Source: Bacteroides sp.
GTDB lineage: Bacteria; Bacteroidota; Bacteroidia; Bacteroidales; Bacteroidaceae
Direction: 5' to 3'
Length of the DNA: 40,777 nucleotides
Assembly (NCBI GenBank): GCA_015060735.1
Contig: SUXX01000016.1
Span: 1-40,777, forward strand
This document shows positions 13,354 through 22,602 of this stretch, piece by piece. The translations under genes were made by a program, and so were the position numbers. A model generated the notes under the pieces. The model saw nothing but the letters and a program-made list of their open reading frames with translations. It was not told the DNA's origin and searched no databases. Each line of letters starts with the position of its first letter. Within the stretch, counting starts at the first letter, position 1.

Positions 13354-13481
13354 AAGGTTATTTTATCATTTCCATGAATGGGGCAAATCACTATTTTCAA
13401 GTGGTGGTTTTATGAAATTTAACACGGTGTCTTTTGATATAAACGGAAAAAATATTTCCTTTGTCACTAAATTTGTTAGTC

Positions 13482-13973
13482 ATGAAAACATTTTTCCTCA
13501 TTATCCTGTGCAATTTGTTTGTAGTATTATCTATGCAGGCACAACAGACTCCCAAAATTGAATTAGGAGAACTTTATATAGGCAATGAACTCTTTGATAT
13601 AAATGGAAGGGCGTTTCGTTTGGAAGATTTTCGTGGTAAATATATTTTATTGGGATTCTGGTCACAATCCAGTAACGAAAGTATAGCTGATTTTAAGCAA
13701 TTAAAGAAGCTTAAAGAACAACATGCTGATAAGTTGACTATTGCCAGCATTTGTGTAGATAAAATAGACAATTGGAAAACATCCTTCAAACAGAAGGAAA
13801 TTACGTGGTATAATTTGAGTAATGGAACTCAGAAAAAAGAAGGAATTGCTAAAGATTTTTATATAGAGAAATTGCCTACATATATTCTGATAGCTCCCGA
13901 TGGAACTTATTATGCACGTTTGGTTAGTGCGGCTCTTTATATAGCGAATTGGGAGAACCTACCAATGCCTTAA
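13482..13973 (+). CDS. Secreted TlpA/thioredoxin-like protein lacking CxxC
   Basis: A 163-residue protein with an N-terminal signal peptide (MKTFFLIILCNLFVVLSMQA) and a thioredoxin/AhpC-TSA fold: FDINGRAFRLEDFRGKYILLGFW, a central beta-alpha unit, and the cis-proline region KLPTYILIAPDG. The active-site position reads W60-S-Q-S-S instead of W-C-x-x-C, so no dithiol chemistry is possible there. It may be a binding or structural relative of TlpA. The start at 13482 is chosen because it begins the signal peptide; the frame opens at 13461. It converges on the five-propeller operon (stop-to-stop gap 87 bp). Codon use is A/T-rich, unlike the Mrp gene upstream. Confidence 0.75.
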   Translation: MKTFFLIILCNLFVVLSMQAQQTPKIELGELYIGNELFDINGRAFRLEDFRGKYILLGFWSQSSNESIADFKQLKKLKEQHADKLTIASICVDKIDNWKTSFKQKEITWYNLSNGTQKKEGIAKDFYIEKLPTYILIAPDGTYYARLVSAALYIANWENLPMP

Positions 13974-13998: not shown

Positions 13999-14032
13999 AC
14001 GCAGAAGGCAGCCCTATTTCTGTCTTCTGCGT
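13999..14032. terminator. Hairpin between convergent genes, possible terminator
   Basis: The arms ACGCAGAAGGCAG and CTGTCTTCTGCGT pair with one mismatch around an 8-nt loop. It lies between the TlpA-like stop and the last propeller gene's stop. It has no long U-tract, so the assignment rests mainly on stem quality and position. Confidence 0.45.
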
Positions 14033-14060: not shown

Positions 14061-15323
14061 TTATTCAATGAGCACTATTACCGGATTATCATCGTCTTTC
14101 AAGTTTTTCAGCCAGTCGGGTTGTTGCTCGGTTGGGATGTTCTCGCGAGCCTCTATCAGCTCTTGGATTTGATAGACCCCGACCCAAGCTCCATCGGTGG
14201 CAAGGGTGTTGATGCAAACACCAGGCATCGCTTCGTTGGGATGTTTAAGGAGCAAAGATTCTTTTTGAAGCTTTACTACCCCTGTTTGCTGATTGTAAAT
14301 ACCGCAACTCGGACTTAAGACAACACCTCCTGAAGTCAATTTTTTCATCATGCCTTGTATGTCGTACAAGTCGGTGAAGAGGGTGAAGTAAATGTGCTTG
14401 CCGTTGTGCAAGATGCGTGGGATTACATATCGCCCGGTCATGCTGCTTGACGTTTCGTATCGTCCGTATCCGCCCAAGCTTCCCAGTTGGAAAGCCGCTA
14501 CGGGCTCTTGTCTTTGCAAGTCCTTCATCTGGAAGATGGTGTCGCAGAAGATGTCTTTGTGATAGAGTGTGTGGTTGCTTGTCCAGAAGGTATTGTTTTG
14601 GTAGTTTCCACCTGTCCATGTACCGTCTTCGTGTTCTACCATCATAAACATGCCTCCATACACTTCCTGACTTCTGAGCGGAGCGATGCTTCGGGTCTTC
14701 TTGGCTTGCATGTCAGTCAATGGAATGGAGTCCAAAAGTTCACCCGATGCTAAATCGTAACAATAAGCCTCGGCAGTGGTCTTTTCGTTGGCTACATTGC
14801 AATAGCCATATGCTTTGTTATGAGAAAAATGATGTCCTCCCATCATGAAGTTTTGCTCGCCGGGCAGGGTGACAGGTGCCAAGGCATTCCCTTCGAAATC
14901 GAAGCAAACATAATTCCCCGGTGTGTTTCTTACATAGATGCGTTTTGTTTCGCTATCCACCTCTAGCGATCCGTTCAGGTATTCGTTAGGACCTTGTCCG
15001 AAGCGTCCGATGGTGCGGAGAAACTTTCCCGTTTTCCGGTCGAAGCATAGAATGGATGCTTTGGTATTTCCAATAAAGATGAATTCGTGGGTTACGACCA
15101 CTTTCGTCATGGGATTGATATCCGTAATCGATGCTTCGTTTGTTTCCAAAGGGATGTAAGTCAAGGTCTCACCGAGGTCGGTCAATGATAGTTCTACCGG
15201 ATTTTGAAAAGCTGTTTCAACCTCGATGATAGGGAGATTGCTTGTTGTATCGGATGCCTTTTCTTTACAGGCATTCAATAACATGATTGAGCATAGGATG
15301 CTGAAGGTAATGTATTTTCTCAT
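14061..15323 (-). CDS. 6-bladed beta-propeller lipoprotein (propeller 1, distal gene)
   Basis: 420 residues. The signal MRKYITFSILCSIMLLNAC is an SPII lipobox (LNAC), so it is membrane-anchored outside the cytoplasm. The body has repeated beta-strand blades and the family hallmark RTIGRFGQGPNEYLNG, then IYVRNTPGNYVCFDFEGN. The C-terminus NLKDDDNPVIVLIE matches the acidic-hydrophobic tail of its four neighbours. This Bacteroidetes propeller family (NHL-like, 6-bladed) has no well-defined biochemical role. The start at 15323 is preferred over an in-frame ATG at 15350, because that extension is encoded by a fossil tail sequence in the spacer. It is the last gene of the BlaI-M56-propeller operon and the most divergent of the three distal copies. 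Confidence 0.82.
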   Translation of the reverse strand: MRKYITFSILCSIMLLNACKEKASDTTSNLPIIEVETAFQNPVELSLTDLGETLTYIPLETNEASITDINPMTKVVVTHEFIFIGNTKASILCFDRKTGKFLRTIGRFGQGPNEYLNGSLEVDSETKRIYVRNTPGNYVCFDFEGNALAPVTLPGEQNFMMGGHHFSHNKAYGYCNVANEKTTAEAYCYDLASGELLDSIPLTDMQAKKTRSIAPLRSQEVYGGMFMMVEHEDGTWTGGNYQNNTFWTSNHTLYHKDIFCDTIFQMKDLQRQEPVAAFQLGSLGGYGRYETSSSMTGRYVIPRILHNGKHIYFTLFTDLYDIQGMMKKLTSGGVVLSPSCGIYNQQTGVVKLQKESLLLKHPNEAMPGVCINTLATDGAWVGVYQIQELIEARENIPTEQQPDWLKNLKDDDNPVIVLIE

Positions 15324-15333
15324 AGGGAAATAT

Positions 15334-15360
15334 TTATTTAAAAGTGGCAATCAACAATTG
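15334..15360 (-). pseudogene. Fossil of a propeller gene's C-terminal codons (copy 1)
   Basis: Read on the minus strand it encodes QLLIATFK followed by a stop, then 10 nt, then the ATG of propeller 1. This copies the real end of propeller 4 (ILLIATLK, stop, 10 nt, ATG of propeller 3) at codon-level detail. No longer open frame precedes it. Confidence 0.6.
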
Positions 15361-15415
15361 TTTTTTTAGTTTTAATTTAATAATATGTTAACTATATACA
15401 CCGATGTATTTATCA

Positions 15416-16621
15416 TTAAATTTTTCCATAAAGTATAAAAGCGTTGTCATCCTCCGTAATGCCATCCAGTAATTCCTGCAAGTTTTGTTTTTCTTCCAGA
15501 GTAAGTTTTTCGGGATGTGCTAACAATTCTTCGCAAGTTTCTGCTATTTGATGAGGTTCCAGGCCCATTGTAAAATAACGGTCCTTAAGATACATCCATT
15601 GGTGGGTAATGGAAAAGTCACCATATCCGTCCAGAACGATATCAACGTAGGCACCTTTAAGCGTTTTCTTGTCTATCAGAATACGTTTGGTAGGATTAAA
15701 GGGATTGCTCATCTCCACTTCACTAAGTAATGTTACCAAATAAAAGTCAGAAGAATCTTCATATTGATGGTTGGGTATTTCGCTTCCAAAGTCGACCGTG
15801 AAATTGGGTTTCAATCGGCTGTTCCGAATGTCATAATGATACAATGTATCTTTTCTGCCGGGAAGATTATAGTCGAAGAACACAACTTCGTCATTTCTGC
15901 TCCATAGCCAGAAGTCATGCCAATACACATGCGTATAATCATAGGTTGTCTGAGGAAGTTTTTGCAAAATGTTTCCTTGAAAATCCTGCTCCCAAATCCA
16001 AGGAACCCCATCGTCTATTCTTCGATGAGGTATACTGGTTACAACCAAAGTTTTATCCTTAGAATTAAGTAGGAACTCGAATGATCGCGAATAACAAAGC
16101 GGAATATCTGTGAGATATTCACCTGTACTTAGCCGAAACTTCAATATTCTGGATGGTTTGAGGTCTTTGATATAGACACAATCGTTATTTTCGTCCATCT
16201 CTATATCTGCTATATCTCTGACCATTTCCCCAGGGCCATTCCCTCTTCGCCCAATGTCAAAAAGGTATTTTCCTGTTTTGTCGAACAACATGGTTTCTCG
16301 ATTATATTCTGCCGGATGTATCAAGATGTAGTTTTCAGAAGGATAGATTATGGCCGGTTGAACCATAACCTCTTTCGAACTGTTTTCCAGTTTCAGCAGC
16401 TTCCAGTCTTTCACCAAGGTGCTTAAAGGGAGTTTGATATGCTGTTCTATTTTACTTACGTCGCAAACTATCAAGGTGTCTCCGCCTGTAATCACTCTAG
16501 AAGCGACGACATTACATTGATTCAACGTATCTTGTTTTTCAATAGAAGAACAAGCGTGTAGGTTACTGGCTATCAATATTATGATTGTACTAAGAAGAAT
16601 GAGGCTGAAATTCTTACTCAT
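15416..16621 (-). CDS. 6-bladed beta-propeller lipoprotein (propeller 2)
   Basis: 401 residues with an SPII signal (ASNLHAC lipobox). Family hallmarks: FDIGRRGNGPGEMVRDIADIEMD and DCVYIKDLKPSRILKFRL, then blade strands, and a C-terminus LDGITEDDNAFILYGKI. It is a recent tandem paralogue of propeller 3 (next gene upstream on the strand): N- and C-terminal parts are nearly identical by eye, while the region around residues 195-265 differs clearly. Such a pattern fits diversification of one exposed face with gene conversion of the rest, though simple drift is possible. Ligand unknown. The spacer to the gene before it in the operon (93 bp) carries a fossil tail. Confidence 0.85.
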   Translation of the reverse strand: MSKNFSLILLSTIIILIASNLHACSSIEKQDTLNQCNVVASRVITGGDTLIVCDVSKIEQHIKLPLSTLVKDWKLLKLENSSKEVMVQPAIIYPSENYILIHPAEYNRETMLFDKTGKYLFDIGRRGNGPGEMVRDIADIEMDENNDCVYIKDLKPSRILKFRLSTGEYLTDIPLCYSRSFEFLLNSKDKTLVVTSIPHRRIDDGVPWIWEQDFQGNILQKLPQTTYDYTHVYWHDFWLWSRNDEVVFFDYNLPGRKDTLYHYDIRNSRLKPNFTVDFGSEIPNHQYEDSSDFYLVTLLSEVEMSNPFNPTKRILIDKKTLKGAYVDIVLDGYGDFSITHQWMYLKDRYFTMGLEPHQIAETCEELLAHPEKLTLEEKQNLQELLDGITEDDNAFILYGKI

Positions 16622-16631
16622 AGGGATAAGT

Positions 16632-16658
16632 TTATTTTAAAGTGGCAATCAATAATTG
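16632..16658 (-). pseudogene. Fossil of a propeller gene's C-terminal codons (copy 2)
   Basis: The minus strand encodes QLLIATLK then a stop, and 10 nt later the ATG of propeller 2. The encoded LLIATLK and the distance to the next ATG are the same as at the true end of propeller 4. Confidence 0.6.
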
Positions 16659-16714
16659 TTTTTTTAAGTTTTAATTTAATAATATGTTAACTATATACAC
16701 CGATGTATTTATCA

Positions 16715-17914
16715 TTAAATTTTTCCATAAAGTATAAAAGCGTTGTCATCTTCCGTAATGCCATCCAGTAATTCCTGCAAGTTTTGTTTTTCTTCCAGAA
16801 TAAGTTTTTCGGGATGTGCTAACAATTCTTCGCAAGTTTCTGCTACTTGGTGAGGGTACAGACTCATTGTAAAATAATAATCTTTGAGATACATCCATTG
16901 GTGGGTGATGGAAAAGTCACCATATCCGTCCAGAACGATATCAACGTAGGCACCTTTAAGCGTTTTCTTGTCTATCAGGATACGTTTGGTAGGATTAGAG
17001 GACTTGCCTATTCCTACCTCACTAAGTAATGTTACCAAATAAAAGTCTGAAGTATCTTCATATTGATGGTTGGGGATTTCGCTTCCAAAATCGACCGTGA
17101 AATGTGGTTTCAATCGGTTACTCGGAATGTCGTAATGATACAATGTATCTTTTATGCTAGGAATATTGTAGTCAAAGAAAGTTATTTTGTCATTTCTGTT
17201 CCATAACCAAAATTCATACCAAAACTCCTTGTTAAAAGCCTTCTTGGGAAGCTTCTGCAAAATGTTTCCTTGAAAATCCTGCACCCAAATCCAAGGAATC
17301 CCTAGGTCTATTCTCTTATGAGGCCAACAACTTACAATTAAGGTCTCATCCTTTGGATTGAGAAGGAAATCAACTGCATTTGAATAGCTAAGTGGAATAT
17401 CTGTAAGATACTCACCGGTACTTAATCGATATTTCAAAATTCTGGATGGTTTGAGGTCTCGGATATAGACGCAATCGTTGTCTTCATCCATCTCTATATC
17501 TGCCATACTGCTGACTATTTCTCCCGGTCCATTCCCTTTTTTCCCAATGTCAAAAAGGTATTTCCCTGTTTTGTCAAACAACATCGCCCCTCGGTTGTAT
17601 TCTACCGGATGTATCAAGACATAGTTTTCAGAAGGATAAATATAGACTGGGTTAACCATGACTTCTTTGGAACTGTTTTCCAACTTCAGCAGTTTCCAAT
17701 CTTTCACCAAGGTGCTTAAAGGGAGTTTGATATGTTGTTCTATTTTACTTACGTCACAAACTATTAAGGTGTCTCCGCCTGTAATCACTCTAGAAGCGAC
17801 GATATTACATTGTTCTAACGTTCCTTGTTCCTTTATGGAAGTACAAGCGGATAGGTTACTGGCAATCAATATTATGATTGTACTAAGAAGAATGAGGCTG
17901 AAATTCTTACTCAT
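16715..17914 (-). CDS. 6-bladed beta-propeller lipoprotein (propeller 3)
   Basis: 399 residues with an SPII signal (ASNLSAC lipobox). It shares with propeller 2 the N-terminal 'LPLSTLVKDWKLLKLENSS' segment, a FDIGKKGNGPGEIVSSMADI hallmark and an identical LDGITEDDNAFILYGKI end. The ATG is only 10 nt after the stop of propeller 4, so co-translation is likely. It is the probable parent or sister of propeller 2 by tandem duplication. It is predicted to sit as a lipid-anchored propeller in the periplasm or on the surface; its binding partner is unknown. Confidence 0.85.
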   Translation of the reverse strand: MSKNFSLILLSTIIILIASNLSACTSIKEQGTLEQCNIVASRVITGGDTLIVCDVSKIEQHIKLPLSTLVKDWKLLKLENSSKEVMVNPVYIYPSENYVLIHPVEYNRGAMLFDKTGKYLFDIGKKGNGPGEIVSSMADIEMDEDNDCVYIRDLKPSRILKYRLSTGEYLTDIPLSYSNAVDFLLNPKDETLIVSCWPHKRIDLGIPWIWVQDFQGNILQKLPKKAFNKEFWYEFWLWNRNDKITFFDYNIPSIKDTLYHYDIPSNRLKPHFTVDFGSEIPNHQYEDTSDFYLVTLLSEVGIGKSSNPTKRILIDKKTLKGAYVDIVLDGYGDFSITHQWMYLKDYYFTMSLYPHQVAETCEELLAHPEKLILEEKQNLQELLDGITEDDNAFILYGKI

Positions 17915-17924
17915 AGGGAAAGAT

Positions 17925-19277
17925 TTATTTTAAGGTGGCAATCAACAAAATAGGACTACTGTCTTCATTCATGCCTTTCAGTTGTTCGAGCAATTCGGAA
18001 GCTTTGGCATCATTGGCTTTTTCCAATTCTTCAATCATGGACTCGGTTTCTTTAGTGCCGGACTCAAATACATCTATCCAATATTTACCCGATGAAGCAT
18101 GGCGAATATGGAATGTACCCGCCTGAAAATCGTTAATGAAGGCAAATGGAAGATTATCAATACCGTTGGCATATCCGTATGTTGTATAATGAGGAGTCCT
18201 TCGTTCCACAATTTTTACACTTTGTTCTGCCATTCTTACCTTACCGGTAGCTTTTTCGTATGCAAAAGTTAAAACCGATTCTCCCTTGGTAGCTCTCAAA
18301 TAAATGAATTCTTTGGAAGGCCAATAATTACGGATTGCAAAATAATTCAAATCGGAACGTTTTCTGTAAAGTTGGTGTGTATCTCCGTAACTTCCTTTAT
18401 CCTCATTTGAGGAAATGGCATACTGAGGGAGGAATGTTTCGGTAGCAATATCATAACGATAAATGGTATCCGTATCGGGATATTTCAATGTGAATTCATC
18501 TAAATAAAAATCAGAGATAACAGGAGTCGTTTCTACCCATTGATTTTTCCAACCTGTATTTTCTCCACCATTTTCTACAATCTGTGTTTCCAAACCTATA
18601 TGAGTAGGATTTTTATATAGTTTTTTCTTGTTAAACGAATTATCCACTAAAGCGACAGACCATAAAGAATCGACGGGGTTGGATATAACAGGTTTCAAAG
18701 CCGGCAAACTCTGTAAAAGAAAAAAGTTCTCTGCATGTTGAATAAACCAAGAATCACCACCACAATTGTACATAGCATCCATGGTTAGAGAAGACAATTT
18801 TTCTATAAAATTACCATCAAAGTCATAAGCCAATACCCCCGATAAAGTAGACATAATATATATTTTCTTCTCTTGGTTATTCACCTCAAAGTATGCACAT
18901 CGGGTATATTCTCCCGAGCCTTGTCCCACTTTTCCTACTCTATTCAGGAATTTTCCGTTCCGATCGAAGCGAAATATTTGTTTATCTCTAAATGACGCAA
19001 TCCAAATATCTGTTTCTGTAATTTTAATCTGGTCTATTCTTGAAAACAAAGCTTCATCGGAGTTGTCCAAAGAAACAATGTCGATTTTCTTTACGGCGTC
19101 ACTTAATGGGATGGACTCACAACGCTCAATGTTTTGCGATAGGTTGATGACTGGAAGTTCCTCTGCTTCTTCCACAATGTCTATTTGTTGCTTCTTGTTT
19201 GATTGGCAACTTAAAAAGACACTAAGAGCTACGAAAAGATAGAAATGTTTCATAAAAGTAATATGTTGGGTTTTCAT
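17925..19277 (-). CDS. 6-bladed beta-propeller lipoprotein (propeller 4)
   Basis: 450 residues from the ATG at 19277, which overlaps the stop of propeller 5 by one base (TAATG), a coupling arrangement. An alternative start at 19253 gives a more standard signal, MKHFYLFVALSVFLSC. The lipobox is FLSC. The hallmark reads NRVGKVGQGSGEYTRCAYFEVN, followed by IYIMSTLSGVLAYDFDGN. The end KGMNEDSSPILLIATLK is the source of the fossil tails in the two distal spacers. A propeller of the same family as its neighbours but not a close copy. Function unknown. Confidence 0.83.
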   Translation of the reverse strand: MKTQHITFMKHFYLFVALSVFLSCQSNKKQQIDIVEEAEELPVINLSQNIERCESIPLSDAVKKIDIVSLDNSDEALFSRIDQIKITETDIWIASFRDKQIFRFDRNGKFLNRVGKVGQGSGEYTRCAYFEVNNQEKKIYIMSTLSGVLAYDFDGNFIEKLSSLTMDAMYNCGGDSWFIQHAENFFLLQSLPALKPVISNPVDSLWSVALVDNSFNKKKLYKNPTHIGLETQIVENGGENTGWKNQWVETTPVISDFYLDEFTLKYPDTDTIYRYDIATETFLPQYAISSNEDKGSYGDTHQLYRKRSDLNYFAIRNYWPSKEFIYLRATKGESVLTFAYEKATGKVRMAEQSVKIVERRTPHYTTYGYANGIDNLPFAFINDFQAGTFHIRHASSGKYWIDVFESGTKETESMIEELEKANDAKASELLEQLKGMNEDSSPILLIATLK

Positions 19278-20467
19278 TATTTTTTCTTTAGATAAACCAA
19301 GACCAGTACGCCATTGTCGTCATCTTTCAGGTCCTTCACGTTATCCGGTAGCTTTACGCCTTTCTCTGCCAGTTCTATCAATTCGGGTGCTTCCCACCAT
19401 TCTGCCAATACATTCTCTGCCACACGCACATCCGGTTGGAAAGGTAGATTACCCATCATATCGTTCACGAAGGCACCATCCTTTACCTTGATGCATTCCT
19501 TACTTTTCCGGTCATAAATCATCAGCTCGGGAAGTAAATCCCTGTTTGTCAGATTCCAGGTAGTATAAGGCATCACAATGTAACGGTCATTTTCAAGGAT
19601 AGTGGGGCGAAGATAGTTTTCCGCCTCTTTCAGCATGGCATCCATTTCGCTTCCACCCTTGGCATAAGCTACTTCCAAACGTAAGTCTTTGGGTAAATGA
19701 TATTTCCCCATGTCCAGTAAGTAGCGGGGAAGCAAGGAATCGCGGGTTACCGTATAAATGGTGTCGGTGTTATAGTCGCGATAGACGACTTCTTGCTTGT
19801 AGGAATACAAATAATCTTCTTTCTGATTGAAATAGAGCCAGTTCCCCCCGTTCGGTATTTCAAAGCGGTCGTATTGAGGGAAGGCCTTCAATGTATCCTG
19901 TTGATGGTTGGTCATTAAAAGACGGAATGGTCTTTTCCCCGTACTATTCATATAGGCCGTAAAGGTTAGACTGTCGTCCACGACCATTGTCTCAAAAGTT
20001 GGTCCTGTTGGAATTCGATACTCTCTAATGAATGTTCCATCGGGTTTAAATGTTCTCATTTTAATGTGATCCTGTAAATACAATAGTCCCAATTCTTCGT
20101 TAGCTGAAAGACAACGCACAAAAACATATTCTCCTGGTCCTTGCCCTTTGCGAGAGATTACCTTTATAAATTTACCGCTTTCGTCAAAAGCAAGTATACC
20201 TTCCGTGCATGGAATCATGATTTTCTCGTCTATATAGACTATGCTCATGATTTTTGGGCTGGCAACCAGTGAAGCGTCTGTCATTTCTAACGGGATAAAA
20301 CTTATTTTCTCGGCAATGTCGCTCAACTTGATTTCCTGAATGTTTTCCATACCTTTCTCGAAAGGGATAACTGTATATGGGGATGTATTGGTCTCTGGTT
20401 GGTTGGATGAGCAAGCTGTAAGCAAAACACAAGCAACCAACCCTATTAGTGATTTAGGGTAAGTCAT
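19277..20467 (-). CDS. 6-bladed beta-propeller lipoprotein (propeller 5, proximal gene)
   Basis: 396 residues. The signal MTYPKSLIGLVACVLLTAC has lipobox LTAC. The hallmark reads KVISRKGQGPGEYVFVRCLS. The N-terminal IKLSDIAEKISFIPLEMTD segment parallels the other propellers, and the C-terminus VKDLKDDDNGVLVLVYLKKK carries the shared acidic-hydrophobic tail. It lies 50 bp downstream of the M56-TonB gene and is one-base coupled to propeller 4, so it ties the lipoprotein set to the BlaI/M56 regulators. Function unknown. Confidence 0.85.
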   Translation of the reverse strand: MTYPKSLIGLVACVLLTACSSNQPETNTSPYTVIPFEKGMENIQEIKLSDIAEKISFIPLEMTDASLVASPKIMSIVYIDEKIMIPCTEGILAFDESGKFIKVISRKGQGPGEYVFVRCLSANEELGLLYLQDHIKMRTFKPDGTFIREYRIPTGPTFETMVVDDSLTFTAYMNSTGKRPFRLLMTNHQQDTLKAFPQYDRFEIPNGGNWLYFNQKEDYLYSYKQEVVYRDYNTDTIYTVTRDSLLPRYLLDMGKYHLPKDLRLEVAYAKGGSEMDAMLKEAENYLRPTILENDRYIVMPYTTWNLTNRDLLPELMIYDRKSKECIKVKDGAFVNDMMGNLPFQPDVRVAENVLAEWWEAPELIELAEKGVKLPDNVKDLKDDDNGVLVLVYLKKK

Positions 20468-20517
20468 AAGAATTGAGATTTGAATGTGATATTTATTCGT
20501 CTTTCAAGCGATAGTAC

Positions 20518-22164
20518 TTAAATACTGAATACCACGGGCATGACAAATTGGGAGACAACGGGTTCTCCTTTCACCTTGCCCGGATTCCATTTAGGCATAG
20601 TATTTATAACGCGGAGTGCTTCTTGATCAAGTGAAGGATGTATACCACGGAGAATCTTTGCTTCTTTGATGCTACCATCCTTGTCTATCAGGAATTTTGT
20701 AATCACCCTTCCTCCAATTTTTTCTTTTTTACAATCGTCCGGATATTGAATGTTGGCTTGTAGCCATTTGATGAGTTCATTGAAACCACCGGGATAGTTT
20801 GCCGAATCTTCAACAATAGCGTAAATTCCGTTTTCATCAGGTAGGATTTCAGCTTGATGGTGTTGGATTGTTTCTTTGTAATTCTTTTTAAGGCTGAACT
20901 TGACAGGTAGGGTGTAACGCACACGGACGGCCTGTCCTTTCACTTTACCCGGTGTCCATTTAGGCATGGATTCGACCACCCGAAGGGCTTCTTGATCGAG
21001 TAACGGATGCACGCTTCTGACTATTTTTGCATTGCTGATACTACCGTCTTTTTCAATAATCATTTGTGTTACAACTCTTCCTTCGATTTCCTTTGCCATA
21101 GCTTCAGCAGGATAGTTGATGTTTCGACCGAGAAACTTCATGCATTCTCCCATACCTCCCGGAAATTCCGGAGTTTCGTCGCATATCATGACGATGGGTT
21201 CTTGCTTAGGTTTGTCTTGCGGTACGGTGGTAGTAGGAGAGGGCAATTCTTTGATTGCCTTCTCCACCGTACGTGCCACAGCTTCGATGTTGCTGACCAA
21301 AAGTAGAGCGGTGGCCAGCGGTGCAAACAGGGCGTATTTGATGCGTCCTGCTGTGCGGGTTCTTTTCTTGTTCATCATAATAATGCGGCATTTTAAATGT
21401 GATACATTAAAATTATTGTATAGTCCGGTTTGTCTGTTTGTATGAGCAAGTCCCAACAGGTGGTATTGGTATTGTTTGCAATCAGCCGTATTTTCAATCA
21501 CTTTATGATCGGCCAGGTATTCCAGGTTCAAACGGATTTCGGTCTTCATGAGCCACATGAAGGGGTTGAACCAACAGATGATATTAATGATTTCGCTGAT
21601 AATCACATCTATCGAATGCCATTGTCGGGCATGTGTCTGTTCGTGTGTTAGGATTTCGTTCTGGCTTTCTTTGTTCAACTGAGGCAGATAAATAAATATC
21701 CAGCCAAAGAAGGAGAAAGGATTGGTTTCGACCGGAAGGCTGATGATACGTTGTCCGTTCAGGTGGGTGGCTTTCCCTATCCATCGCATTCGGAGAATGC
21801 TAAGTAGCTGGATGAGGAAGCGAAGGCTGAGGGCGATGACTCCAATAAGGTAGATGTATCCGGCGAGAGTCATCAGGCTAGGTATCTTGGCGGTAGAAGA
21901 CAGGGAAGACACCGTTGGCTCGTCAAGTGCTATGAAAGTGGCATAATAGTTTGCCAGTTCGTACATGGTCGGTTGTTCCTTTACCCAGTGTTGGATATTG
22001 AGCAACGGATATAGAAAGGATATGCCCAAGAAACAGAGTAGAGCTGTACGACGCCATTGGAAGAAGGTGTCGCGTTGGCAAAACAGTTTGTAGAAGGCAT
22101 AAAACAAGGCAATGCCGGTATTCACTTTCAGCAGATATATCCATTCGGGTGTCATAGTTGTCAA
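20518..22164 (-). CDS. M56 family (BlaR1/MecR1-type) membrane metalloprotease with two TonB C-terminal domains
   Basis: 548 residues. Hydrophobic segments at about 8-26, 40-56, 99-122 and 277-298 form the membrane part. The zinc motif HEQTH (H174, E175, H178) with the third ligand E215 in LEYLADH matches BlaR1/MecR1 proteases, which cleave BlaI-type repressors on signal. No penicillin-binding sensor domain is present. Instead residues about 333-425 and 455-548 are two similar TonB-C domains (EFPGG...YP...GRV...DG.I..A.I......LD.EALRV...MPKW.PGKVKG), apparently an internal duplication. The gene starts 14 bp after blaI, giving a regulator pair. Sensing may occur through the periplasmic TonB-like modules; the signal is unknown. 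Confidence 0.9.
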   Translation of the reverse strand: MTTMTPEWIYLLKVNTGIALFYAFYKLFCQRDTFFQWRRTALLCFLGISFLYPLLNIQHWVKEQPTMYELANYYATFIALDEPTVSSLSSTAKIPSLMTLAGYIYLIGVIALSLRFLIQLLSILRMRWIGKATHLNGQRIISLPVETNPFSFFGWIFIYLPQLNKESQNEILTHEQTHARQWHSIDVIISEIINIICWFNPFMWLMKTEIRLNLEYLADHKVIENTADCKQYQYHLLGLAHTNRQTGLYNNFNVSHLKCRIIMMNKKRTRTAGRIKYALFAPLATALLLVSNIEAVARTVEKAIKELPSPTTTVPQDKPKQEPIVMICDETPEFPGGMGECMKFLGRNINYPAEAMAKEIEGRVVTQMIIEKDGSISNAKIVRSVHPLLDQEALRVVESMPKWTPGKVKGQAVRVRYTLPVKFSLKKNYKETIQHHQAEILPDENGIYAIVEDSANYPGGFNELIKWLQANIQYPDDCKKEKIGGRVITKFLIDKDGSIKEAKILRGIHPSLDQEALRVINTMPKWNPGKVKGEPVVSQFVMPVVFSI

Positions 22165-22178
22165 TAAGGTTTATGAGG

Positions 22179-22544
22179 TTATTCTTCCTTTCCTTTTTCA
22201 ATCAGGCTGATGATATCTTTCAAATCGTCGGTAGAGAGTTTCTGTTCTTTGGCGAAGAAAGATACCATTTCTTTGTACGAGTTGGCGAAATAGTTTTTCA
22301 CTACACCATGAATGAAGGTGCTTTTGTACTCACCTTGTTTGATGAGCGGGAGATACATGTAGGTGTTTCCATAACGCTTGGCTTCTACGTATCCTTTCCG
22401 TTTCAGGTTGTTCACTATCGAGGCGATTGTGGTATAGGGTGGTTGAGGCTCGGGGAACTTGGCTACGATGTCTTTAACAAAACAACTTCCCAAACTCCAG
22501 ATATGGAGCATCACTTCTTCTTCTTGTTGTGTGAGTTTGTTCAT
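22179..22544 (-). CDS. BlaI/MecI/CopY family transcriptional repressor
   Basis: A 121-residue winged-helix protein: MNKLTQQEEEVMLHIWSLGS, then VKDIVAKFPEPQPPYTTIAS (recognition-helix area) and IVNNLKRKGYVEAKRYGNTY, followed by a helical dimerisation tail. Homologues bind dyads as dimers and are inactivated by proteolysis by their cognate M56 partner, here the next gene. The start at 22544 is chosen because it aligns with the family; the frame opens at 22601, within the operator. Upstream are two 15-bp dyads on a consensus promoter, so autoregulation of the whole operon is likely. Confidence 0.93.
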   Translation of the reverse strand: MNKLTQQEEEVMLHIWSLGSCFVKDIVAKFPEPQPPYTTIASIVNNLKRKGYVEAKRYGNTYMYLPLIKQGEYKSTFIHGVVKNYFANSYKEMVSFFAKEQKLSTDDLKDIISLIEKGKEE

Positions 22545-22558
22545 GATAATTAGTTTAT

Positions 22559-22592
22559 TACGAATACTTCGCAAAACTACGAAAGTTTCGTA
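22559..22592. promoter_or_regulatory. Paired BlaI-like operators
   Basis: Site 2 (22578-22592) is a perfect 7-1-7 palindrome, TACGAAAGTTTCGTA. Site 1 (22559-22573), TACGAATACTTCGCA, matches it at 11 of 15 positions. The centres are 19 bp apart, close to two helical turns, so two dimers would bind the same DNA face. Confidence 0.7.
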
Positions 22593-22602
22593 ATAAAACA
22601 AA
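22572..22602 (-). promoter_or_regulatory. Promoter of the BlaI-M56-propeller operon
   Basis: On the minus strand TTTG (22602-22599) is followed after 19 nt by TAGTTTTG (22579-22572), a full consensus match. Operator site 2 fills most of the spacer and touches the -7; site 1 overlaps the expected transcription start. Confidence 0.7.

Follow-up and report, generated by a model that had tools for sequence, protein, structure and literature searches.

A BlaI-like repressor and an M56 protease with TonB_C domains precede a variable set of DUF5128 propeller genes in Bacteroides

A repressor, a protease and five propellers are encoded on one strand

The window analysed here is a stretch of 40,777 nucleotides from a Bacteroides sp. 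draft genome (GenBank assembly GCA_015060735.1, contig SUXX01000016.1). Seven intact open reading frames (ORFs), all on the minus strand between 14061 and 22541, encode a BlaI-like repressor, an M56 (BlaR1-type) metalloprotease and five propellers of the DUF5128 family, which are predicted to be six-bladed. The repressor gene (22179-22541, minus strand) encodes 120 aa with a Penicillinase_R domain (Pfam PF03965, 9e-32) and is followed by the protease gene (20518-22158, minus strand), whose 546-aa product combines Peptidase_M56 (PF05569) with two C-terminal TonB_C domains (PF03544). The gap between these two genes is 20 bp when counted to the ATG of the protease gene and 14 bp with a TTG start; the later gaps are 50 bp, a 1-nt overlap between propellers 1 and 2, 10, 93 and 92 bp. 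An earlier reading made without database searches (hereafter the sequence-only reading) had described seven same-strand genes with short gaps; the ORFs and the gaps agreed with that description, the 14-bp value requiring the TTG start. It had also proposed a protease-relayed sensing system for an envelope ligand, with an array of five propeller lipoproteins as its binding or signalling parts, a claim that is weighed below.

The repressor scored 110.3 bits with Penicillinase_R (curated cut-off 22.6), and MecI and BlaI structures matched it at 6e-7 to 2e-5. The NCBIfam BlaI model gave 39.7 bits, with a cut-off of 180. The genome (G000 in our set; L numbers denote loci) is an 81% complete draft of 2.45 Mb, with 28 DUF5128 matches and four BlaI-M56 pairs. 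Besides the pair in the window, one pair (L018) is followed by a propeller gene after one intervening FGE-type gene, another (L019) has a propeller about 2.5 kb away, outside the same-strand run, and the last (L020) has a TPR gene.

The protease carries transport-interface domains in place of a penicillin-binding sensor

Pfam analysis of the window protease identified Peptidase_M56 at 1e-15 and the two TonB_C stretches at 1.6e-39 (134.7 bits, cut-off 24.6). The HExxH motif lies at residue 172, and a simple hydrophobicity scale indicated two strongly hydrophobic segments. For comparison, we assembled 98 BlaI neighbourhoods from 61 genomes of the genus, together with the window and the three other loci of its own genome, leaving out one contig-edge match and eleven weak or partial matches. 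Counting L001 and L072 as one locus, and likewise L003 and L061 (4,963 bp), this set contained 99 distinct BlaI-M56 pairs in 50 of the 61 genomes. Removal of near-duplicates and short sequences left 86 M56 C-terminal parts, across which HExxH and, further along, E65 and D69 were invariant. Their tails matched TonB_C (64), CarboxypepD_reg (30), CarbopepD_reg_2 (29) and Plug (16), with overlaps between categories. The TonB_C counts rest on Pfam, a looser home-made pattern that was positive in every M56 having been discarded.

No penicillin-binding family was found in these 86 tails at E 1e-3, and the window protease reached 31.5 bits with the NCBIfam BlaR1 equivalog, which has a cut-off of 400. 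Where BlaR1 and MecR1 have a C-terminal penicillin-binding sensor domain, the window protein has its two TonB_C domains. Since the defining sensor is absent, as the sequence-only reading had pointed out, the protease is not a BlaR1. It shares the C-terminal TonB_C with TonB energy transducers and differs from them in its N-terminal half, which is an M56 protease instead of a single ExbBD-binding anchor helix; energy transduction via ExbBD is therefore unlikely. One study links a carboxypeptidase-like domain to TonB (PMC12204202). Because the families matched are the TonB C-domain on the one hand and transporter N-terminal or plug domains on the other, the tails are mostly pieces of the interface between TonB and TonB-dependent transporters, and they look like the sensor of these proteins. 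The window protease is one member of this architecture, which is found across the genus; propeller cargo is a lineage-level feature. The literature searched yielded no characterised M56 protein with a TonB_C, CarbopepD_reg or Plug tail.

Putative operator dyads over the repressor promoter are conserved in the M56 clade

Upstream of the repressor gene, TAGTTTTG (22572-22579, minus strand) is preceded at a distance of 19 bp by TTTG (22599-22602, minus strand); we take these to be Bacteroidales-type -7 and -33 elements. Two putative operator dyads flank the -7 box. Dyad 1 (TACGAAACTTTCGTA, 22578-22592) overlaps the box, and dyad 2 (TGCGAAGTATTCGTA, 22559-22573, one mismatch) overlaps its downstream end. 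Among BlaI genes for which 90 bp or more of upstream sequence was available, TACG-N7-CGTA followed by TTTG was present in 28 of the 29 members of the window's M56 clade and, with one change, in the 29th (L074), the -7 box lying at the same place across the clade. The single promoter with two dyads claimed by the sequence-only reading was thus upheld. The same layout was absent from all 73 distinct BlaI upstreams that the genus has outside this clade, a set that excludes L075 (identical to clade member L058) and L052 (another genus). These other upstreams, 76 entries when duplicates are included, carried AACTA..TAGTT dyads in 43 cases and TACTA..TAGTA dyads in 8. An alignment of 14 clade upstreams indicated that TTTG is less constant than the dyads; dyad 2 is itself less constant, with L072 and L144 retaining it weakly or not at all.

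The contrast between 28 of 29 upstreams in the clade and 0 of 73 elsewhere in the genus makes autoregulation by BlaI likely: lineage-specific dyads over the promoters of their own BlaI genes are the pattern that autoregulation predicts. TACG-N7-CGTA with TTTG was also found in 7 of 39 BlaI upstreams from other genera (L178, L180, L183, L197, L198, L208 and L212, counted outside the M56 tree), so this operator type probably predates the genus. The bla and mec operators of S. aureus are of the TACA/TGTA type, unlike the TACGA..TCGTA operators of the window.

The significance of the promoter dyads lies in their conservation in the clade and not in pattern counts, which were unremarkable in the window (3 found, 1.7 expected). 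Dyad 1 is the sole exact TACGAANNNTTCGTA in the genome draft. Sites with one mismatch numbered 13 genome-wide, against 21 for a backward control. A regulon-wide operator was rejected on this basis; only the promoter pair stands out, and no regulon beyond the operon is claimed.

Separate internal promoters for the propellers had been named by the sequence-only reading as evidence that would count against a single operon. None of the five internal spacers read contained a TAnnTTTG box or an operator. Four TAnnTTTG boxes lie on the coding strand within coding sequence of the operon, so internal promoters are possible there.

The AT-rich spacers of 93 bp (16622-16714) and 92 bp (15324-15415), which precede propellers 4 and 5, are near-identical copies and contain TACATCGGTGTA. 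The possibility that TACATCGGTGTA is an internal BlaI site was considered and found unsupported, as its sequence is unlike that of the dyads conserved at the promoter.

The cargo consists of DUF5128 propellers with lipobox-like signals

Propellers 1 (19277-20467), 2 (17925-19277), 3 (16715-17914), 4 (15416-16621) and 5 (14061-15323), all on the minus strand, matched DUF5128 (PF17170) with E values of 5e-17 to 9e-31 (62.4 to 107.6 bits, cut-off 22.9). The DUF5128 profile in turn matched the NHL propellers of TRIM2, TRIM71, Thin and Brat, as well as the putative exported protein 4raa. A simple pattern detected a lipobox-like cysteine in four of the five proteins. The lipoboxes read LSC in propeller 2, LSAC in propeller 3 and LNAC in propeller 5; in propeller 1 the pattern halted at LVAC and LTAC was assigned by eye, and the NLHAC of propeller 4 is a weaker candidate. 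The sequence-only reading had described five lipoproteins sharing a GxGPGEY motif. All five proved to belong to one family and the lipobox pattern extended to four of them; the literal motif is restricted to propeller 1, the others having GQGSGEY, GNGPGEI, GNGPGEM and GQGPNEY. In the openly licensed PMC literature, titles and beginnings of abstracts revealed no recognisable study of what DUF5128 proteins do.

Propellers 3 and 4 are tandem duplicates (82% identical), and propeller 1 is 61% identical to propellers encoded elsewhere in the genome (L025, L026). The G108 orthologue of propeller 5, which is 94% identical to it, is encoded immediately after the M56 gene of that genome. Comparison with G108 gave a dN/dS of 0.14 for propeller 5, and values of 0.14-0.15 for propellers 5 and 3/4, indicating purifying selection. 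The family is unevenly distributed among the 61 genus genomes: 26 had no DUF5128 match at E 1e-5, 12 had at least ten, and seven encoded 17-45 propellers each.

Two propellers outside the operon were seen by eye to lie within an apparent ribosomal-peptide cluster (L025, 1-12000, G000:C39), together with a C39-type peptidase exporter, dehydratase-like proteins and an 88-aa leader-like peptide. In two genomes, a 115-aa protein is encoded directly 3' of propellers (L156, 1055-1402; L021, 2788-3135). The L156 copy gave a sigma-70 region 4-like match of 22.9 bits, below the cut-off of 25.7, and the L021 copy looked alike by eye.

Propeller genes follow BlaI-M56 pairs more often than expected

At least 400 bp of sequence was available after the M56 gene in 95 of the 99 pairs. 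The next same-strand gene encoded a propeller in 10 of the 95, and a propeller lay within the run in 11. The expectation for a propeller as the next gene, built from per-genome propeller counts at a presumed density of 870 genes per Mb, was 0.39 (nominal P 4e-12). All 10 cases were in genomes with at least ten propellers, which together held 31 pairs. Two more cases at contig ends fell outside the 95. In G108 (L156), the M56 gene is followed by two propeller genes, the orthologue of propeller 5 and one whose product is 73-77% identical to propellers 4 and 3; in G113 (L238), a DUF4221 gene separates M56 from the propeller. Propellers behind M56 were on the same strand, with gaps of -13 to 179 bp.

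On a tree of the 99 M56 proteins, the propeller label required at least seven changes and fell in four lineages (the window clade; L125/L127; L018/L082/L084; L087/L095). This tree carries a warning of long branches, and its G108 row is labelled 'other' since the contig ends inside M56. A control of twenty 20-kb regions at arbitrary positions contained one propeller match in 400 kb, inside a 7.5-kb ORF and not as a stand-alone gene. We preferred the per-genome expectation because the control regions came from five genomes only, four of them poor in propellers (0-5). Chance proximity of an expanded family was rejected as the whole explanation by the per-genome counts. The neighbourhood search proposed by the sequence-only reading thus recovered the linkage in related genomes, and the association between BlaI-M56 pairs and propellers is, in these comparisons, real and recurrent, and not universal.

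In L240, L241 and L082, propellers were observed on both sides of BlaI or M56 on one strand, resembling head-to-tail repeated modules. In L107, L114 and L063 (the last partial), BlaI was followed by a run that looked RND-efflux-like by eye, with no M56 directly behind it.

The slot behind the protease gene holds interchangeable cargo

The mrp gene was found beyond M56 in ten genomes (those of the window, G080, G062, G107, G088, G136, G105, L002, G108 and G113); at most other clade loci the stretch fetched did not reach it. Propeller genes lay between M56 and mrp at five of these loci: five in the window, five with a TPR gene in G107, two in G108, one with the DUF4221 gene in G113 and one in G062. 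In L002 the slot was occupied by what looked by eye like a thioredoxin-like gene, whereas G080, G088, G136 and G105 lacked same-strand cargo. The propellers of G107 are not orthologous to those of the window, their best matches among 52 compared being each other and propellers of other loci. When each of the 95 pairs was given one label (propeller before TPR before thioredoxin-like), 11 were classed as propeller, 22 as TPR and 11 as thioredoxin-like, with 15 followed by other genes and 36 by none; without precedence, thioredoxin-like genes (26), TPR genes (23) and propellers (11) were found among the 99 pairs.

Since syntenic loci differ in their cargo, the switch is conserved and its output turns over. 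The conserved five-propeller array was rejected on these grounds, syntenic loci holding different, often non-orthologous cargo or none, and the fixed array of the sequence-only reading has to be given up. The best reading of these comparisons is that the slot behind M56 is an interchangeable cargo slot in which propellers represent a variable output.

A slot propeller is fused to TonB_C in a related genome

The propeller in the slot of G062 is a 556-aa protein in which DUF5128 is followed by TonB_C (32.1 bits, cut-off 24.6); the NCBIfam TonB model gave 26.7, just under its cut-off of 27.1. A search of 399 genomes of the family, in which at most three candidates were scored per genome, identified two further full-length relatives of this fusion, both in G004, which belongs to another genus. 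One passed the Pfam TonB_C cut-off (25.9) and the other fell just short (22.6). No BlaI or M56 gene lay beside them in the 7.0 and 8.1 kb read. The fused TonB_C domains were 34-45% alike mutually and 25-39% alike to the M56 tails. Because they are closer to each other than to those tails, the fusion probably arose before it came to lie in the operon. The G062 protein shows that a propeller and TonB_C can be joined in a single unit, which is no proof that the two bind each other in the operon described here.

A proteolytic switch rewired to outer-membrane transport is the preferred interpretation

In the BlaR1-BlaI and MecR1-MecI systems, cleavage of the repressor has been proposed as the switch (PMC9834060 and PMC7593790), and the former source describes direct cleavage of BlaI by BlaR1 between Asn101 and Phe102. 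The window locus resembles these S. aureus systems in having a repressor-protease pair with Penicillinase_R and an M56 HExxH motif, and dyads over the promoter. It differs in its sensor (two TonB_C domains here, a class-D-lactamase-like domain there), in its gene order (the repressor first in a co-directional run here, a divergon there) and in its output (propellers here, a lactamase or PBP2a there).

We therefore hypothesize that a BlaR1/BlaI-like switch based on regulated proteolysis has been rewired to outer-membrane transport, with propellers as variable output, and we assign this interpretation a probability of about 0.6. BlaI would bind the two promoter dyads and repress its own operon. 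The M56 protein would span the inner membrane, with its zinc-protease domain in the cytoplasm and the tail of two TonB_C domains in the periplasm, where the tail would meet a ligand, our best guess being some state of a TonB-dependent transporter. By analogy with BlaR1 and BlaI as described in PMC9834060, the engaged M56 would relieve repression by cutting BlaI, switching on the operon, presumably as one transcript. The output would be propeller lipoproteins of the envelope, probably serving the same transport or envelope process. The protease-relayed envelope system put forward by the sequence-only reading is supported by the anatomy of the locus; the fixed propeller array is not supported.

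Sigma/anti-sigma systems of the FecR type, which signal through TonB-dependent transporters, resemble the logic proposed here: a regulator in the inner membrane responds to the state of a transporter in the outer membrane. The operon contains no anti-sigma factor, and the relay proposed here is the protease-repressor pair. In P. gingivalis W50, a BlaI-family gene (RS08150) was lower in excess hemin (LFC -1.74), according to PMC10470040; the next locus tag, RS08155, is an M56 gene, and its row reads 'No' in the column that we take to report differential expression. This hemin response is weakly consistent with transport sensing. No paper on BlaI-M56 genes with propellers was recognisable among the PMC titles and abstract openings mentioned above.

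Several observations weigh against the rewired-switch interpretation. The case is built by sequence comparison, from which expression, BlaI binding and cleavage are inferred. The cleavage-site residues are unlike those of S. aureus: the window residue aligned to the P1' residue Phe102 is Phe, but P1 is Phe where MecI has Asn, and P1' varies among 141 BlaI relatives, with Phe in no more than 83, Leu in 57 and Cys in 1. The syntenic loci of G105, G088 and G136 keep the switch without same-strand cargo. Related genomes enter the enrichment test as if they were independent, so that its nominal P value overstates the significance; it also assumes a uniform 870 genes per Mb, and the propeller count of G087 is a lower bound (at most 29 candidates scored). 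In other genera, propellers accompanied none of 38 pairs (from the 40 best-scoring loci); the six other-genus genomes checked had 0 to 7 propellers each. Finally, the propeller link is not confined to TonB_C tails. M56 proteins followed by propellers carry TonB_C in the window, L060, L062, L068, L018 and the L084 gene (scanned as L241), but L125 has CarbopepD_reg, and L082, L087 and L095 had no tail match at E 1e-3, although the L082 tail resembles a plug domain by eye.

These points leave some room for a model in which the slot merely collects lineage-expanded propellers that are transcribed separately and are unrelated to BlaI and M56. The differing or absent cargo of syntenic loci is what such a model expects, propellers are numerous in seven genomes and are also found in many settings unlike this one, and promoters could fit into the 92-93 bp spacers. 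We nevertheless consider it unlikely, as propellers follow M56 far above expectation, on the same strand, at short distances and in four lineages; propellers 1-3 have just 50, -1 and 10 bp in front of them, scant room for promoters, and the internal spacers lacked promoter boxes and operators.

Alternatively, as the sequence-only reading proposed, the propellers themselves could be the sensors, binding an envelope ligand and relaying its presence to the M56 tail, so that input and output would be the same molecules in a feedback loop. Fusion to TonB_C, seen once in G062 and in two proteins of G004, favours this idea, as do the lineages in which M56 proteins without a recognised TonB_C still have propellers behind them. 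However, the G004 fusions have no BlaI or M56 in the sequence read around them, clade members without propellers retain the same operators, and ligand binding by propellers is conjectural; we regard this explanation as rather improbable. A beta-lactam or cell-wall stress system of the bla/mec kind with an unrecognised sensor, for which the homology of BlaI and M56 to the bla/mec pair speaks, is very improbable given the lack of penicillin-binding families in the 86 tails, the NCBIfam scores far under their cut-offs for BlaR1 and BlaI, and the lack of any lactamase or PBP recognised by eye among the downstream genes listed.

The rewired switch may also be one case of a general class in Bacteroides, although we offer this extension as speculation. 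BlaR1-type tails would mimic TonB or the N-terminal and plug domains of transporters and thereby sense free or engaged transporters; induced propellers would dock on TonB_C and close a feedback loop, and the fusion protein would be the merged form.

The BlaR1/BlaI switch is known above all for its role in antibiotic resistance, and here such pairs are abundant in a Bacteroides-like genus, with transport-interface tails and an apparent envelope output. If the rewired-switch interpretation is correct, it would describe a widespread and uncharacterised way of sensing outer-membrane transporter activity and place the large DUF5128 family in a setting that is both regulatory and physical. With the conserved operator and the fusion protein at hand, the interpretation is open to direct tests.

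Features downstream of the operon

A thioredoxin-fold protein (Thioredoxin_8) is encoded convergently to propeller 5 (13461-13973, plus strand). It looks catalytically dead, because FWSQSSNES occupies the expected CxxC position, and it is possibly a remnant of thioredoxin-like cargo such as that in the L002 slot. Between the two convergent genes lies a weak terminator-like hairpin (13999-14032, z -1.73). It is missing from the terminator scan listing and 12 of 200 shuffled sequences folded equally well, so that its role as a terminator is only suggestive.

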